Origin: Parapedobacter tibetensis
GTDB taxonomy: Bacteria; Bacteroidota; Bacteroidia; Sphingobacteriales; Sphingobacteriaceae
Assembly: GCF_024704835.1 (NCBI RefSeq)
Contig: NZ_JAMXBE010000018.1
Coordinates: forward strand, 1-64,000
Reading direction: 5' to 3'
Length of the DNA: 64,000 bases
Positions within the stretch are counted from its first letter, which is position 1. Each line of letters begins with the position of its first letter. Positions 4,114 to 9,040 of the stretch are shown one piece after another. The notes beneath the pieces were generated by a model. It was not told where the DNA came from. It saw only the letters and a program-made list of their open reading frames with translations, and ran no database searches. Made by a program: the position numbers and the translations under genes.

Positions 4114-4237
4114 ACTAAACAAGTGTAGCGTTTTAAATGCGACATACGTCATCTACTCAGTGAGTGATATTCAAGCATGTATGGCGCATGAGTTAAATTT
4201 TTTACTAAGGCAGGCTACATACCCCATAAATTGAGCG

Positions 4238-4245
4238 TATATTTG
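4238..4245 (+). promoter_or_regulatory. -7 promoter element of the sigma/anti-sigma operon
   Basis: TATATTTG fits the -7 consensus TAnnTTTG 43 bases before the GTG start of the sigma gene. No convincing -33 TTTG is seen at 19-21 nt, so the operon may need an alternative sigma factor (perhaps itself) or have a weak promoter. Confidence 0.4.
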
Positions 4246-4288
4246 TGTTGTAAATTAACAAGCTGATTAATAGTGTTGTAGCCTTATA

Positions 4289-4897
4289 GTGAGTTTCAAT
4301 ATCCGATACTTGAAGGGAAAGCATGCCCCATCATTGGAGCGTGCAGTGAGGGAATGTGCCCAAAATGGGGATGAACGGAGCAAGGAATTTATCTACAAAA
4401 GCTGCTATGGTTATGTCCGTTCAATAACATTGCGTTATGTCAAAAATACGTATGATGCGGAAGAGTTGACGAATGAAAGTTTCATACGGGCCTTTGGTAA
4501 AATGGGAACATTCAATAATGGAGATTTGGGTGATCGATTTGAAAAATCGTTTAGGGCATGGTTGGCCCGCATAGCCGTAAACATCTCTATTGATTTTTTA
4601 CGGGGCAAAAAACAATTTGTCGCGTTGGACGAAATGAATGAAGGGGGTATGGAGCAGCAACATGTGGAAGTATCTGGGAATTTGCATGTAGAGGATATCT
4701 TAAAGCTATTGGCACAATTGCCAGATATACAACGCTCGATATTCAATTTATATGAAGTAGAAGGGTATTCACATGAAGAGGTTGCGACCATGCTTGACAT
4801 TCCTGAAAGCACGTCCCGTACCTATTTGACCCGTGCCAAGAAGAAATTACGGAAGCTTTACTTGGAATCGATAAATATCACGGCCGGATTTCAATAA
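4289..4897 (+). CDS. ECF-type RNA polymerase sigma-70 factor
   Basis: Directs RNA polymerase to a dedicated promoter set. In 202 residues region 2 is visible as FIYKSCYGYVRSITLRYV through DAEELTNESFIRAF and WLARIAVNISIDFLR (about 35-115). Region 4 runs from LLAQLPDIQRSIFNLYEVEG through YSHEEVATMLDIPESTSRTY (about 140-185), with a canonical helix-turn-helix. The start is GTG at 4289; the next in-frame Met is far inside region 2. The gene is 22 bases before a gene for a protein with an anti-sigma head and an outer-membrane barrel, so the pair is probably a sigma/anti-sigma system. Regulon unknown. Confidence 0.9.
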   Translation: MSFNIRYLKGKHAPSLERAVRECAQNGDERSKEFIYKSCYGYVRSITLRYVKNTYDAEELTNESFIRAFGKMGTFNNGDLGDRFEKSFRAWLARIAVNISIDFLRGKKQFVALDEMNEGGMEQQHVEVSGNLHVEDILKLLAQLPDIQRSIFNLYEVEGYSHEEVATMLDIPESTSRTYLTRAKKKLRKLYLESINITAGFQ

Positions 4898-4919
4898 TAC
4901 AGCGATCACAAATGCTGAG

Positions 4920-6257
4920 ATGAACGAAAGTAAGAAAAATAAGGAACTGATTCAACGGATGGCAGAAACGCTGCGCAACCATACTGAACCTTATAAAGAG
5001 GGGGCATGGGAGCGGTTTTCGGCCAAATACGGCATCCCAAAGAAGAGAGGCATGGTGCAATGGCCTTATTGGGGTGCGGCGGCACTGCTGTTGATGGCCA
5101 TGGGGCTGTTTTTGTTCGATCGACAAACCGATGAATTGGACGTGGTGCAACATGATATCGTACAACCCACCGGGGAGCTAAGAAGAACAGAGGAACAACC
5201 GACAGCCGAAATAGCGGATAAACCCCAAGATCCCGTGGAATTGGCGGCACCAAGGCAAACAACCCAAAGCCGAGAACAGCTGGCTGGTGCCAAGTCCATA
5301 GAAGCCGAGGTGCCTACATATGCAAGAGGCCGTCAAGACACATTTTTACCTGTTAGCGGACAAATACTCGCAAGTAACGCGAGGGTTGTGGAGGATTCTA
5401 AAGATCCAGAAGAGGCGAACTCAAAAGAGGAACTTATGACAGCTAGGGTTGACCATGATACCGTTTCGAATGATGCCAAATTACTAGCCGATGGAGGCAT
5501 AGAGCAATTCCCAGGAAACGAATCGTTCGGTAAGGACATGTTGGATAATGAGTATCCAGAAAAGGCTACAGAAGCAAGGCGCGATTTCAAGAAATGGGAT
5601 TTAGGGCTGGTGGTTTCGCCATCCCTCACTAACGAAAAGGTAAATATGGGAGGGGGGATTGCCATTGCATATCGATTATCCGACAAGTTTTCATTAAGCT
5701 CAGGTGTATCGGTCGGTCAACTGGGCTTAGGGCAAAACCCAAACTATGAGCCAATGGCAAACTCAGATATGCAAGCTGCCCCAATATACGGTTCGGAAAA
5801 TCAGGGTTTTGTAAGTGAAGCTTCTTCAAATCGCAAGGAGGTTACCTCCGTGACGAGCAACCTGTTGGCTTTGGATATACCGATTGATTTGCGGTATAAC
5901 ATCACGGAAGGGTTTTACACTTCAGTTGGCATTTCTTTCCTGACTGTTTTGAACGAACAGCGCACCAATCATCTTGTGGACCGTGGTATCAACCAGCCCA
6001 CATTCGAGAAAAGCGGTTCGAATAAGGATTTGGAATCCGCCGTGCAGGCCACCTATTCATCGGAAAGAACTGCTTACCAACCTTTGGAGGGAAAAGGCTA
6101 TACGGGTTTTGTTAATTTTTCCGTAGGCCGTAAAGTACCACTATTTCGTAAATTTTCACTCTCCATAGAACCCTATTTCAAGCTCCCAATCGGAAGCTTA
6201 TCACGTGAAGAAATGGATTTTACCAACGGAGGGATCCGGATTATAACAGGATTTTAA
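4920..6257 (+). CDS. Candidate dual-membrane-spanning anti-sigma factor with C-terminal outer-membrane barrel
   Basis: The 445 residues fall into four parts: a charged cytoplasmic head (1-46) with PYKEGAWERFSAKYG, typical of short Bacteroidota anti-sigma heads; one transmembrane helix (47-66, WPYWGAAALLLMAMGLFLF); a polar, low-complexity linker (about 67-220) rich in E, T, D and Q; and a C-terminal part (about 223-445) starting KKWDLGLVVSPSLTNEK that has the alternating pattern and aromatic girdle of an 8- to 10-strand beta barrel, ending in GGIRIITGF with a terminal Phe. No cleavable signal peptide is seen. The architecture matches the dual membrane-spanning anti-sigma factors (Dma) reported in Bacteroides thetaiotaomicron, where the head binds the cognate ECF sigma and the barrel sits in the outer membrane. 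It is cotranscribed with the sigma gene 22 bases upstream. Function is inferred from architecture and context. Confidence 0.75.
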   Translation: MNESKKNKELIQRMAETLRNHTEPYKEGAWERFSAKYGIPKKRGMVQWPYWGAAALLLMAMGLFLFDRQTDELDVVQHDIVQPTGELRRTEEQPTAEIADKPQDPVELAAPRQTTQSREQLAGAKSIEAEVPTYARGRQDTFLPVSGQILASNARVVEDSKDPEEANSKEELMTARVDHDTVSNDAKLLADGGIEQFPGNESFGKDMLDNEYPEKATEARRDFKKWDLGLVVSPSLTNEKVNMGGGIAIAYRLSDKFSLSSGVSVGQLGLGQNPNYEPMANSDMQAAPIYGSENQGFVSEASSNRKEVTSVTSNLLALDIPIDLRYNITEGFYTSVGISFLTVLNEQRTNHLVDRGINQPTFEKSGSNKDLESAVQATYSSERTAYQPLEGKGYTGFVNFSVGRKVPLFRKFSLSIEPYFKLPIGSLSREEMDFTNGGIRIITGF

Positions 6258-6687: not shown

Positions 6688-8613
6688 ATGAAAAATAGTC
6701 GTATGCGTTTTTACTTATTACCTCTTTTTTTAATGGTAATTTATGGTTCTGCTACCTATGCTTTCCAAACCAATGTTTCCCTATTGCAAAAGGACACGGC
6801 TATTATCAACGATTGGTATACGGATGCCTTCCTTTCCATGAAAGATGATTTGAAGAAATCGGATGATTTTATCAATAAGGCATGGAAAATGTCTATCGAT
6901 ATAGCGTATGAAAAAGGTGTGTCTGATGGATATTACTATACGGGATGTGTATATGAACAAAAGGGGGCAATGAACGTTGCCAGTCGGTATTTCGAGAAAG
7001 CTATTTCGCTATACGTTCAAGGTCAATTTTTAGACAATTTGCCAGACTGCTATAGGAGATTGGGTGAAATTTACATGAATCAAGGAAGGAATTATACCGC
7101 TTTACTGAATTTTCTGAATGGATTGCATGTCGCTGAGGACCAACGGGATTATGTCAATCAGATCGAATTGAGCATTCAACTCGCTAATTATCACAATCGC
7201 GTTTCAAAGGATTACGATGGTGCGATTTCCGTACTCAACAACGCAGAAAAACTTGCAAATAAGCAAATTTATCTATCCGCCTTCGGTCCTATTTATTTGC
7301 AATATGGTATCAGCTATTGCCGGCAACGGAATTATGAGCAGGCACGCTATTATGTGCGTAAAGCCAAGCAAGAATTTGATGTAACCTCAAGTCCTGATAA
7401 CCACTTGAAAGCCCTCTTTGTGGAAGGTGAAATTTATGAAAAGCTGCTTGATGGAGAACAGCTGTTTGCGGTGCTTAATCAGGCCAAGCCATTGCTCGAT
7501 TCCATTGTAAACGATAGCTTGGAAACCACCTATGGCTTATTGCGTGCAAAAGCATTGTACCAAACAGGTGATTATAACGCAGCCTTAGCAGCCTGTGAAG
7601 AATTAAATACCAAGTTGGCCGACCAAAAGCGCGAGGACGACCAGTACCTTATTTTTGCACTGCAATTCAAGATATTGTATGCCCTGCGTGATTTCCGTAA
7701 GGCTGACCAGTTGTTTAATGACTATGAATACACAAGAGATAGCCTCTACACTGCCCAATACATAGGTCAGGGAATAGAAATGAGCGAAAACTATAAATTG
7801 GATAAATTTAAAAGACAAATTCTGGAGCAGGAGCTGAAGCTTTCCAATTCCATCTACCAACGATATGGCTTTATTGCTGGTATCGCGGTATTGTTAATTA
7901 TATTGGGCATCCTTTATTTCCACTTCCGGGAAAAAGATAAATTGGCACATCGGGAGGTTATTAAAAACAGCGAAATTTCTGTGCAAAATGAAATACTGAA
8001 ACAGACAAACAGACATAACGAACTGCTTATGCGGGAAATCCATCATCGGGTAAAGAATAATCTCCAAATTATCAACAGCCTGCTTAGTCTCCAAGCTCGG
8101 AAAACAACTAACCGGGAAGTTGTGGAGATGATGAAAGAAAGCAGGAGTCGGATAAATTCCATTGCACTCATCCACAATAAACTGTACCAACAACAGAGCC
8201 TCAATAAATTGAACATCCAAGACTATATTGAGCAACTCGGCGTTCATTTATTAAGTATTTACAATAACAATAAGAACGTACGTATTCATGTGGATACCGG
8301 AGAGGTTACCTTGGATATCGATATAGCCATCCCCGTGGGGCTGATATTGACGGAGTTGATTACGAATTCCTTGAAATATGCTTTTGTGGAACGTGAAGAT
8401 GGAGAGATTTATATCCATGTGAAGCACAATGGCGAAAATGATTATGAGCTTATTTTCAAGGACAATGGGATTGGTATCCCTGAAGCAAAATTGAATCAAA
8501 ACAACGACACGTTGGGATTTAGGTTAATTCATTCCCTGACCAAACAATTAGCCGGGATTATCCATTATACATTTGGAGAGTTTTCCCTGTACAATATCCG
8601 GTTCAAAGGGTAA
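6688..8613 (+). CDS. TPR-sensor histidine kinase (HisKA_2/HWE-like)
   Basis: Membrane-bound sensor kinase of 641 residues. A signal peptide (about 1-26, ending near TYAFQ) leads into a periplasmic region of tandem tetratricopeptide repeats (about 45-370; e.g. GGMNVASRYFEKAI-like and YEQARYYVRKAKQEF units). A single transmembrane helix at about 392-412 (FIAGIAVLLIILGILYF) is followed by a short coiled coil, then the HisKA_2 phospho-acceptor box REIHHRVKNNLQIINSLLSL (His about 451-452) and a HATPase domain with N-box ELITNSLKYAF (about 555) and DNGIGIP (about 592). The receiver-only regulator follows after 40 bases. The ligand of the TPR region is unknown; in this architecture it often serves protein-protein sensing. 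Confidence 0.9.
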   Translation: MKNSRMRFYLLPLFLMVIYGSATYAFQTNVSLLQKDTAIINDWYTDAFLSMKDDLKKSDDFINKAWKMSIDIAYEKGVSDGYYYTGCVYEQKGAMNVASRYFEKAISLYVQGQFLDNLPDCYRRLGEIYMNQGRNYTALLNFLNGLHVAEDQRDYVNQIELSIQLANYHNRVSKDYDGAISVLNNAEKLANKQIYLSAFGPIYLQYGISYCRQRNYEQARYYVRKAKQEFDVTSSPDNHLKALFVEGEIYEKLLDGEQLFAVLNQAKPLLDSIVNDSLETTYGLLRAKALYQTGDYNAALAACEELNTKLADQKREDDQYLIFALQFKILYALRDFRKADQLFNDYEYTRDSLYTAQYIGQGIEMSENYKLDKFKRQILEQELKLSNSIYQRYGFIAGIAVLLIILGILYFHFREKDKLAHREVIKNSEISVQNEILKQTNRHNELLMREIHHRVKNNLQIINSLLSLQARKTTNREVVEMMKESRSRINSIALIHNKLYQQQSLNKLNIQDYIEQLGVHLLSIYNNNKNVRIHVDTGEVTLDIDIAIPVGLILTELITNSLKYAFVEREDGEIYIHVKHNGENDYELIFKDNGIGIPEAKLNQNNDTLGFRLIHSLTKQLAGIIHYTFGEFSLYNIRFKG

Positions 8614-8653
8614 GAATGGGGGCTAAATTTGGAGTGATTTAAGTGATTCAAGC

Positions 8654-9040
8654 ATGAAAAAGGATATAGCTATAATGGAAAGAATCTACATCGTAGAAGA
8701 CCAAATGATTATTACGTTGGATTTGCAGCATATGCTTGAAGATTTAGGGTATGAGGTCTGTGGGATATCCCCAAGCTACCATGAAACCCTTAATAACATT
8801 GAGGTGGTCAAGCCAGACTTGATTTTATTGGATATTTTCCTCCAAGGTGATAAAACGGGGATAGACCTTGCACACGTACTTAATCAAAATTATCATATAC
8901 CCTTTATCTTCTTGACTTCCCACACAGACGATCAGACCGTCAAGATAGCCAAAGAGACCCAGCCAAGGGGCTATCTGGTGAAACCGTTTAAGCTAAACGA
9001 ACTGTATGCCGCGATTGAAATGGCATTTGGCAGAACCTAA
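8654..9040 (+). CDS. Stand-alone receiver-domain response regulator
   Basis: 128 residues form one receiver domain and nothing else. The acidic pocket (VEDQM), the phospho-acceptor Asp in LILLDIFL (about residue 61), the switch Thr/Ser (FLTSH) and the Lys in YLVKPF (about 107) are all present. There is no DNA-binding output domain, so it probably acts through protein binding or as a phosphorelay intermediate for the upstream kinase. Met 8 (MERIYIVED) is an alternative start that would match the usual domain boundary better. Confidence 0.9.
   Translation: MKKDIAIMERIYIVEDQMIITLDLQHMLEDLGYEVCGISPSYHETLNNIEVVKPDLILLDIFLQGDKTGIDLAHVLNQNYHIPFIFLTSHTDDQTVKIAKETQPRGYLVKPFKLNELYAAIEMAFGRT

Follow-up and report, generated by a model that had tools for sequence, protein, structure and literature searches.

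The locus studied here raises the question of whether one polypeptide chain can link the state of the outer membrane to transcription, and of which genes would then respond. We analyzed it within a window of 64,000 nucleotides, the whole stretch of Parapedobacter tibetensis DNA under study. On the forward strand, the window carries a gene for a 202-aa ECF sigma factor with a GTG start (4289–4897; Sigma70_r4_2, E 1.1e-17; Sigma70_r2, E 2.8e-11) and, after a gap of 22 bases (4898–4919), an ORF of 445 aa with an ATG start (4920–6257) that is predicted, from its reading frame, alignment and structure model, to encode a Dma-like dual-membrane anti-sigma factor. The sequence-only reading had placed an ECF sigma gene 22 bases 5′ of the ORF, and the profile matches to sigma domains confirmed it. 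Computation supported the architecture of the larger protein, its pairing with the sigma factor, the promoter of the operon and a set of conserved target genes.

We scanned genomes, one per species, with the motif of the N-terminal head and obtained 123 stretches, of which 95 encode relatives and 80 loci were kept. These span Parapedobacter, Olivibacter, Sphingobacterium, Pedobacter, Mucilaginibacter, Niabella and other Chitinophagaceae, and include bins labelled Bacteroidales and one Allomuricauda bin. A related sigma gene is adjacent in all 80 loci, as it is in 31 of 31 loci from a whole-protein search, whose genomes overlap with the 80; the two genes are paired far beyond chance. Head, helix and barrel are fused in one ORF in 78 of the 80 loci, and L086 and L090, in which Dma is split in two ORFs, were left out of the alignments. 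A search across the phylum gave matches in 78 of 296 genomes, a count that we did not use because many of the matches cover only the helix and the linker composition. Among the 29 loci examined from that search (L112–L140), 26 have an adjacent sigma gene; eight of the pairs lie in genomes outside the window's class, two of them with the GxWExF head core (L117 in genome G334 and L118 in G223).

Within the genus, a full-length Dma homologue was found in 9/9 Parapedobacter genomes searched, our own included. The homologues of the other eight are 46–51% identical to the window protein, while the sigma factors of the genus-mates are 74–84% identical to the window sigma, indicating that the anti-sigma drifts faster than its sigma. 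The GTG start of the sigma gene is kept in 9/9 Parapedobacter upstream regions. A HisKA_2 TPR histidine kinase and a stand-alone receiver lie 3′ of the operon (window 6688–9040); they were considered as part of the operon and set aside, being separated from it by a 430-base gap with no motif site within. The kinase directly follows Dma in 6 of the 80 loci, which are six of the eight named Parapedobacter loci (L032–L036 and L104), and the window has the same arrangement. Elsewhere in the window, at about 100–1600, short repeated units produce look-alike ORFs on both strands.

The predicted cytoplasmic head comprises residues 1–47 (4920–5060, forward strand, as are all features below) and is defined by alignment around the core YxxGxWExF; the core stretch, residues 24–38, reads PYKEGAWERFSAKYG. 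Y25, G28, W30, E31 and F33 are invariant in 21/21 proteins from the whole-protein search, among which A29 varies. The core is also invariant in the 79 rows of our main alignment, where this holds by construction since the relatives were found with the head motif as scan pattern; 21/21 is thus the independent figure. Residues 48–70 (5061–5129) form an inner-membrane helix, identified by hydropathy and modelled at 50–70, that is probably an uncleaved signal anchor. By hydropathy (mean of at least 1.3), a single such helix is found in 79/79 rows, and a crude pattern for an A-X-A-like cleavage site after the helix, used in place of SignalP, matched in 0/79. Lysines and arginines are more numerous before than after the helix in 71/79 rows, which fits a cytoplasmic head.

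The helix is followed by a predicted disordered periplasmic linker of 153 residues (71–223; 5130–5588), recognized by low pLDDT and low sequence identity. In the AlphaFold model made with the 79 rows, residues 71–220 have no structure (pLDDT of 41–56 in blocks of ten). Mean identity to the window protein is 10.8% in the linker, compared with 37% in the helix, 34% in the barrel and 42% in the head, the last being inflated by the motif-based search. The length of the linker is nonetheless rather uniform, with a median of 147, a range of 113–227 and a coefficient of variation of 0.10. At 0.34 nm per residue, by our own arithmetic, even the shortest linker of 113 residues has a contour length of about 38 nm, which exceeds the usual width of the periplasm, so the tether can reach across. 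The sequence-only reading had expected linker length to fit the periplasm width; the rather uniform length would suffice for a tether and does not by itself make the linker a ruler.

Residues 224–445 (5589–6254) are predicted, from their strands and an OmpA/OmpX-type match, to form an outer-membrane beta barrel. The model contains helices at 3–20, 29–37 and 50–70 and, from 226 to 444, nine stretches of strand that mostly have high pLDDT; its loops at about 273–305 and 351–380 are loose. Foldseek ranked small barrels of known structure first, with OmpA (E 2.9e-6) in the lead and Ail, OmpX and OprF after it, at a moderate fit (TMt 0.43–0.64, rmsd 8–19). The last residue is phenylalanine in 74/79 rows, and the Pfam family OMP_b-brl_2 is matched by 42/79 relatives but not by the window member, on which Pfam and NCBIfam gave nothing significant. 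A profile search against PDB sequences gave four weak matches (E 0.005 to 0.27) to the helix and linker only. The protein had been drawn from its sequence as a short cytoplasmic head, an uncleaved inner-membrane helix, about 150 disordered residues and a C-terminal barrel. This outline stood throughout, the absence of cleavage as probable, and for residues 223–445, where a prediction of no barrel would have spoken against it, strands were modelled from 226 to 444.

This layout is not new. Dma proteins are already known as a class from the phylum Bacteroidota (PMC13088901), to which Parapedobacter belongs, and a 2022 study had met this layout in Phocaeicola (PMC9308784); the window pair is thus one more member. 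The sequence-only reading had seen an instance in a Sphingobacteriaceae-like genome as extending the class; the layout and the likeness were supported, but the class was already phylum-wide. The single transmembrane helix, the long disordered tether and the C-terminal beta barrel that mark a Dma protein are all found here. Dma1 and Dma2 of Bacteroides thetaiotaomicron, with their sigma partners Das1 and Das2, are reported to have a cytoplasmic sigma-binding head, one helix, a long disordered tether and a C-terminal barrel, with the ECF sigma gene adjacent as in the window (PMC13088901); the likeness lies in the layout as described and not in a sequence comparison. The adjacent sigma of the class is of the ECF21 family, and that of the window is an ECF sigma with Sigma70_r2 and Sigma70_r4_2 domains. 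By description, the sigma/anti-sigma pair M0N98_03761/03760 of Phocaeicola vulgatus shares the layout as well (PMC9308784).

The genetics reported for these counterparts concerns both the operon and its targets. Dma proteins are described as inhibitors of their sigma whose loss raises vesiculation. The dma2 operon itself rises when dma2 is lost, and it includes BT_1557 (DUF4943), unlike the DUF4397 gene met below (PMC13088901). In Phocaeicola, a transposon in the anti-sigma counterpart changed 15 genes, 14 of them upward; treatment with a toxin led to a 33-fold rise of the sigma gene and to increases in NigD-type putative lipoprotein genes, and the response, which follows envelope attack, includes an LPS glycosyltransferase (PMC9308784).

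In the RseA/sigmaE system and in FecR-type cell-surface signalling, a membrane anti-sigma likewise frees an ECF sigma upon an outer-membrane signal, but the outer-membrane sensor there is another protein, whereas in the window sensor and anti-sigma would be one chain.

For the contact between head and sigma, we modelled the sigma and head of P. luteus as a read-through chain, with an alignment of 11 other read-through pairs and 25 sigma-only rows. The model reached pLDDT 84 and pTM 0.74, with head residues 5–34 at pLDDT 87–94 and residues 35–44 at 71; residues 1–40 of the window head, modelled without the sigma and from a different alignment, reached 71–83. The best match of the chain was SigW held by RsiW (TMt 0.65–0.67, rmsd about 5), followed by NepR (0.59–0.60), SigK–RskA (0.57) and CnrH–CnrY (0.55), while RNAP-bound ECF sigmas gave only TMt 0.32–0.45 with rmsd 21–27. 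SigmaE–RseA and AlgU–MucA, which are also anti-sigma complexes, gave 0.44–0.48, around the top of the values for RNAP-bound sigmas. The closed sigma of this model favours an inhibitory head–sigma complex, though the closed form may be independent of the head. A natural fusion is found in Dma3 of B. thetaiotaomicron, in which a sigma domain forms the N terminus of the Dma chain (PMC13088901), whereas the window partners are separate genes. From this model of a relative, we infer that the window head probably binds and inhibits its sigma factor.

One alternative is that Dma acts as a positive partner of the sigma, or is an unrelated outer-membrane protein of the same operon. Inhibition by Dma is indeed deduced here from computation, but the conserved head, the positive-inside helix and the pairing with a sigma in 80/80 loci all speak for an inhibitor, as does the genetics of the counterparts in two genera (PMC13088901; PMC9308784), and we consider this alternative highly improbable.

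Upstream of the operon, we identified the predicted ECF promoter TGTAGC-N17-CGT at 4124–4149. The same pattern lies within 400 bases 5′ of the first gene in 62 of the 80 related loci, where 0.22 would be expected as computed from the rest of the same 80 loci, and any other spacer from 12 to 22 occurs in at most two loci. Relaxing the −35 element to TGT[AT][GA]C raises the count to 66/80. Two of the 18 loci without the exact spacer-17 site have a spacer of 16, and the loci lacking the site are mainly distant members. Closer to the sigma gene, TATATTTG (4238–4245), a probable basal promoter element, fits TAnnTTTG, which has been named as the −7 consensus of the Bacteroidota housekeeping sigma (PMC9723704) and is invariant in 9/9 Parapedobacter upstream regions. 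The two elements together suggest an operon with an autoregulated and a basal start. An inverted pair, GGCTACA (4213–4219) and TGTAGCC (4277–4283), flanks the TATATTTG element and is largely kept across Parapedobacter; an operator or a hairpin was considered.

In 33 of the 80 loci, a gene of a DUF4397 cluster lies within 300 bases 5′ of the sigma gene on the same strand, and in 26 of these 33 the promoter site precedes this operon-opening gene. The cluster was built by blastp, and both of the two members checked were DUF4397 (L046, E 3.6e-34; L057, on the opposite strand, E 2e-26). In Pedobacter relatives, the DUF4397 gene precedes the sigma, whereas in Parapedobacter it lies elsewhere in the genome with the promoter in common. 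Four distant loci (L103, L107, L108 and L110) have a lipoprotein gene from a single cluster next to the pair. This gene precedes the sigma in three of them and follows Dma in the fourth; two of these genes were checked and encode FKBP proteins.

The genome of the window has 41 sigma-like matches. In the paralogous sigma–Dma pairs L149, L002 and L031, TGTAGC is followed by GTGTTT in place of CGTT, and in the less clear paralogue L030 by GGGTTT; paralogues thus seem to have diverged in the −10 code but to have kept the −35 in common. TGTAGC-N17-CGT was absent from the five other sigma loci checked in the genome of the window. On contig C8 (L145:1056–3328), a sigma gene is accompanied by genes for a head-helix protein of 272 aa and, separately, for a protein of 302 aa that by eye resembles an outer-membrane protein, a trio that is possibly a split Dma layout.

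Across the own genome, we found 45 TGTAGC-N17-CGT sites compared with 51 for the reversed pattern. With an N20 spacer there were 26 sites and 63 reversed, showing the reversed control to be a poor baseline, and an excess can still not be claimed from it. The total does not exceed that of the reversed pattern, and 26 of the 45 sites fall within ORFs. Many individual sites must therefore be noise, and the claim of a regulon rests on position, spacer control and orthology. Defining promoter position as outside ORFs and at most 300 bases before a same-strand gene, 16/45 N17 sites but only 1/26 N20 sites were in such a position (Fisher p 0.002); all our p-values ignore the kinship of the sequences and are too small for that reason. 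A stricter pattern gave 54 sites in nine Parapedobacter genomes against 17 reversed. After setting aside seven in the own genome and three in operons already counted, 44 were classified, with 34 in promoter position, nine in ORFs and one other. In eight genomes of other genera, the numbers were 35 and 16 reversed, and 20 of the 29 classified sites were in promoter position. The gene caller is crude, and the sites of the P. composti serpin and the P. pyrenivorans DUF4397 gene (L208, L214), called within ORFs, in fact lie just 5′ of the matched genes.

Orthology was the stronger test. The best homologue of the DUF4397 lipoprotein has an exact site within 450 bases 5′ in 15 of 16 genomes. In three genomes this homologue is the operon's own gene (G020, G033 and G013), with a site in two and none in G013; in the 13 genomes where it is located away from the operon, the site is present in 13/13. 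Further DUF4397 homologues in these 16 genomes have the site in only 3 of 14 cases. An FKBP-like lipoprotein (Pfam E 1.3e-4 over 38 residues) was matched in 14 genomes; leaving out the partial match of G033, 11 of 13 have the site, the exceptions being G002 and G022. For a serpin, the site was found in four of the five genomes with a match, G024 lacking it. Other targets in the own genome include ecotin, an S41 peptidase, a family 2 glycosyltransferase, a transglycosylase and further lipoproteins, and those in other genomes DUF4254, CpsB/CapC and a barrel protein, with lipoproteins, FKBP-like proteins, serpin, DUF4254 and glycosyltransferase recurring.

By a strict pattern, 34 of 65 target proteins have a lipobox compared with 55 of 830 genes of the L032–L111 loci, the 65 including repeated orthologues, 14 DUF4397 proteins among them, and the 830 also including DUF4397; 13 more of the targets are lipoprotein-like by eye. 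In genome G033, small genes that by eye are mostly lipoprotein-like form two clusters (L327, L333, L339, L344, L349 and L352), each with its own near-identical TGTAGC-N17-CGTT copy upstream. On these sequence patterns, we infer that the sites mark a lipoprotein-led regulon of this sigma, each target being a candidate for activation. We found no earlier report of this promoter or regulon in the literature searched, outside which most subscription journals lie.

The site may instead be read by several ECF sigmas, with the pair controlling little beyond its own operon. The 41 sigma-like matches in the genome and the paralogous pairs with TGTAGC and a different −10, GTGTTT, are in its favour, the latter implying that −35 elements are shared, and a CGT-box motif of F. 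psychrophilum is thought to serve perhaps several ECF sigmas (PMC9723704). The exact site nevertheless stands before this orthologous pair in 62/80 loci and before none of the five other own-genome sigma loci checked, which makes such sharing rather unlikely.

Our preferred reading, to which we give a probability of about 0.7, is that the pair forms an autoregulated envelope-stress switch of the Dma kind over a lipoprotein-led regulon. A housekeeping-type promoter would make a little sigma and Dma. Dma would be held in the inner membrane by its uncleaved helix, with the linker spanning the periplasm and the barrel inserted in the outer membrane, and at rest its head would clamp the sigma in a closed form, as in several known sigma–anti-sigma complexes. 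A signal sensed through the barrel, whether failure of barrel assembly, perturbation or cleavage of the chain, would release the sigma, which would then transcribe from TGTAGC-N17-CGT promoters its own operon together with lipoprotein (DUF4397, FKBP-like and serpin), LPS and peptidase genes.

A wider version, which we hold only tentatively and regard as doubtful, gives the pair the place of sigmaE: in the Sphingobacteriales it would be the general response to outer-membrane stress, with a sensor that watches its own barrel assembly. Only Dma inserted by BAM would silence the sigma, and failure of BAM or of barrel supply would free it; the regulon, with its lipoproteins, prolyl isomerase-like protein, protease inhibitors and LPS genes, would then rebuild and shield the surface. 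In our view a sentinel of barrel assembly would fit best, since many of the genes induced by a BamA-binding bacteriocin are also induced by the toxin that acts on the Phocaeicola counterpart (PMC9308784). The barrel could also be a receptor that binds an external ligand, for instance a glycan, with the pair running a nutrient or surface programme in place of envelope stress, and the Dma2 authors do suggest glycan sensing and report PUL changes (PMC13088901). We consider this unlikely here: SusC/SusD and glycoside hydrolases were absent from the 18 target proteins scanned with Pfam, the recurrent targets are those given above, and no PUL gene was noticed beside the pairs, where a minority of the neighbour clusters were named. 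A last reading has the linker cut at rest, leaving the head-helix piece as an ordinary inner-membrane anti-sigma and the free barrel with another job. The long, disordered and unconserved linker is a ready protease target, and on contig C8 the head-helix and outer-membrane-like proteins come from separate genes, but 78/80 loci keep head, helix and barrel joined in a single ORF and the linker varies little in length; these features are compatible with cutting as well, and we judge separate functions at rest improbable.

To our knowledge, the sigmaE, Cpx and Rcs systems of enterobacteria are mostly absent from Bacteroidota, and envelope-stress control there is poorly known. What is new here is probably the control circuit, that is, the promoter TGTAGC-N17-CGT and the target genes of a Dma-type pair. 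A promoter code common to Parapedobacter, Olivibacter, Sphingobacterium and Pedobacter would turn a structural curiosity into a testable circuit, in which a reporter carrying a single 26-base site should reveal the state of the dual-membrane sensor. DUF4397, a domain of unknown function, gains a regulatory place, and the regulon may help to explain the vesicle, lipoprotein and LPS changes seen in gut Bacteroides and Phocaeicola when Dma-type proteins are lost.
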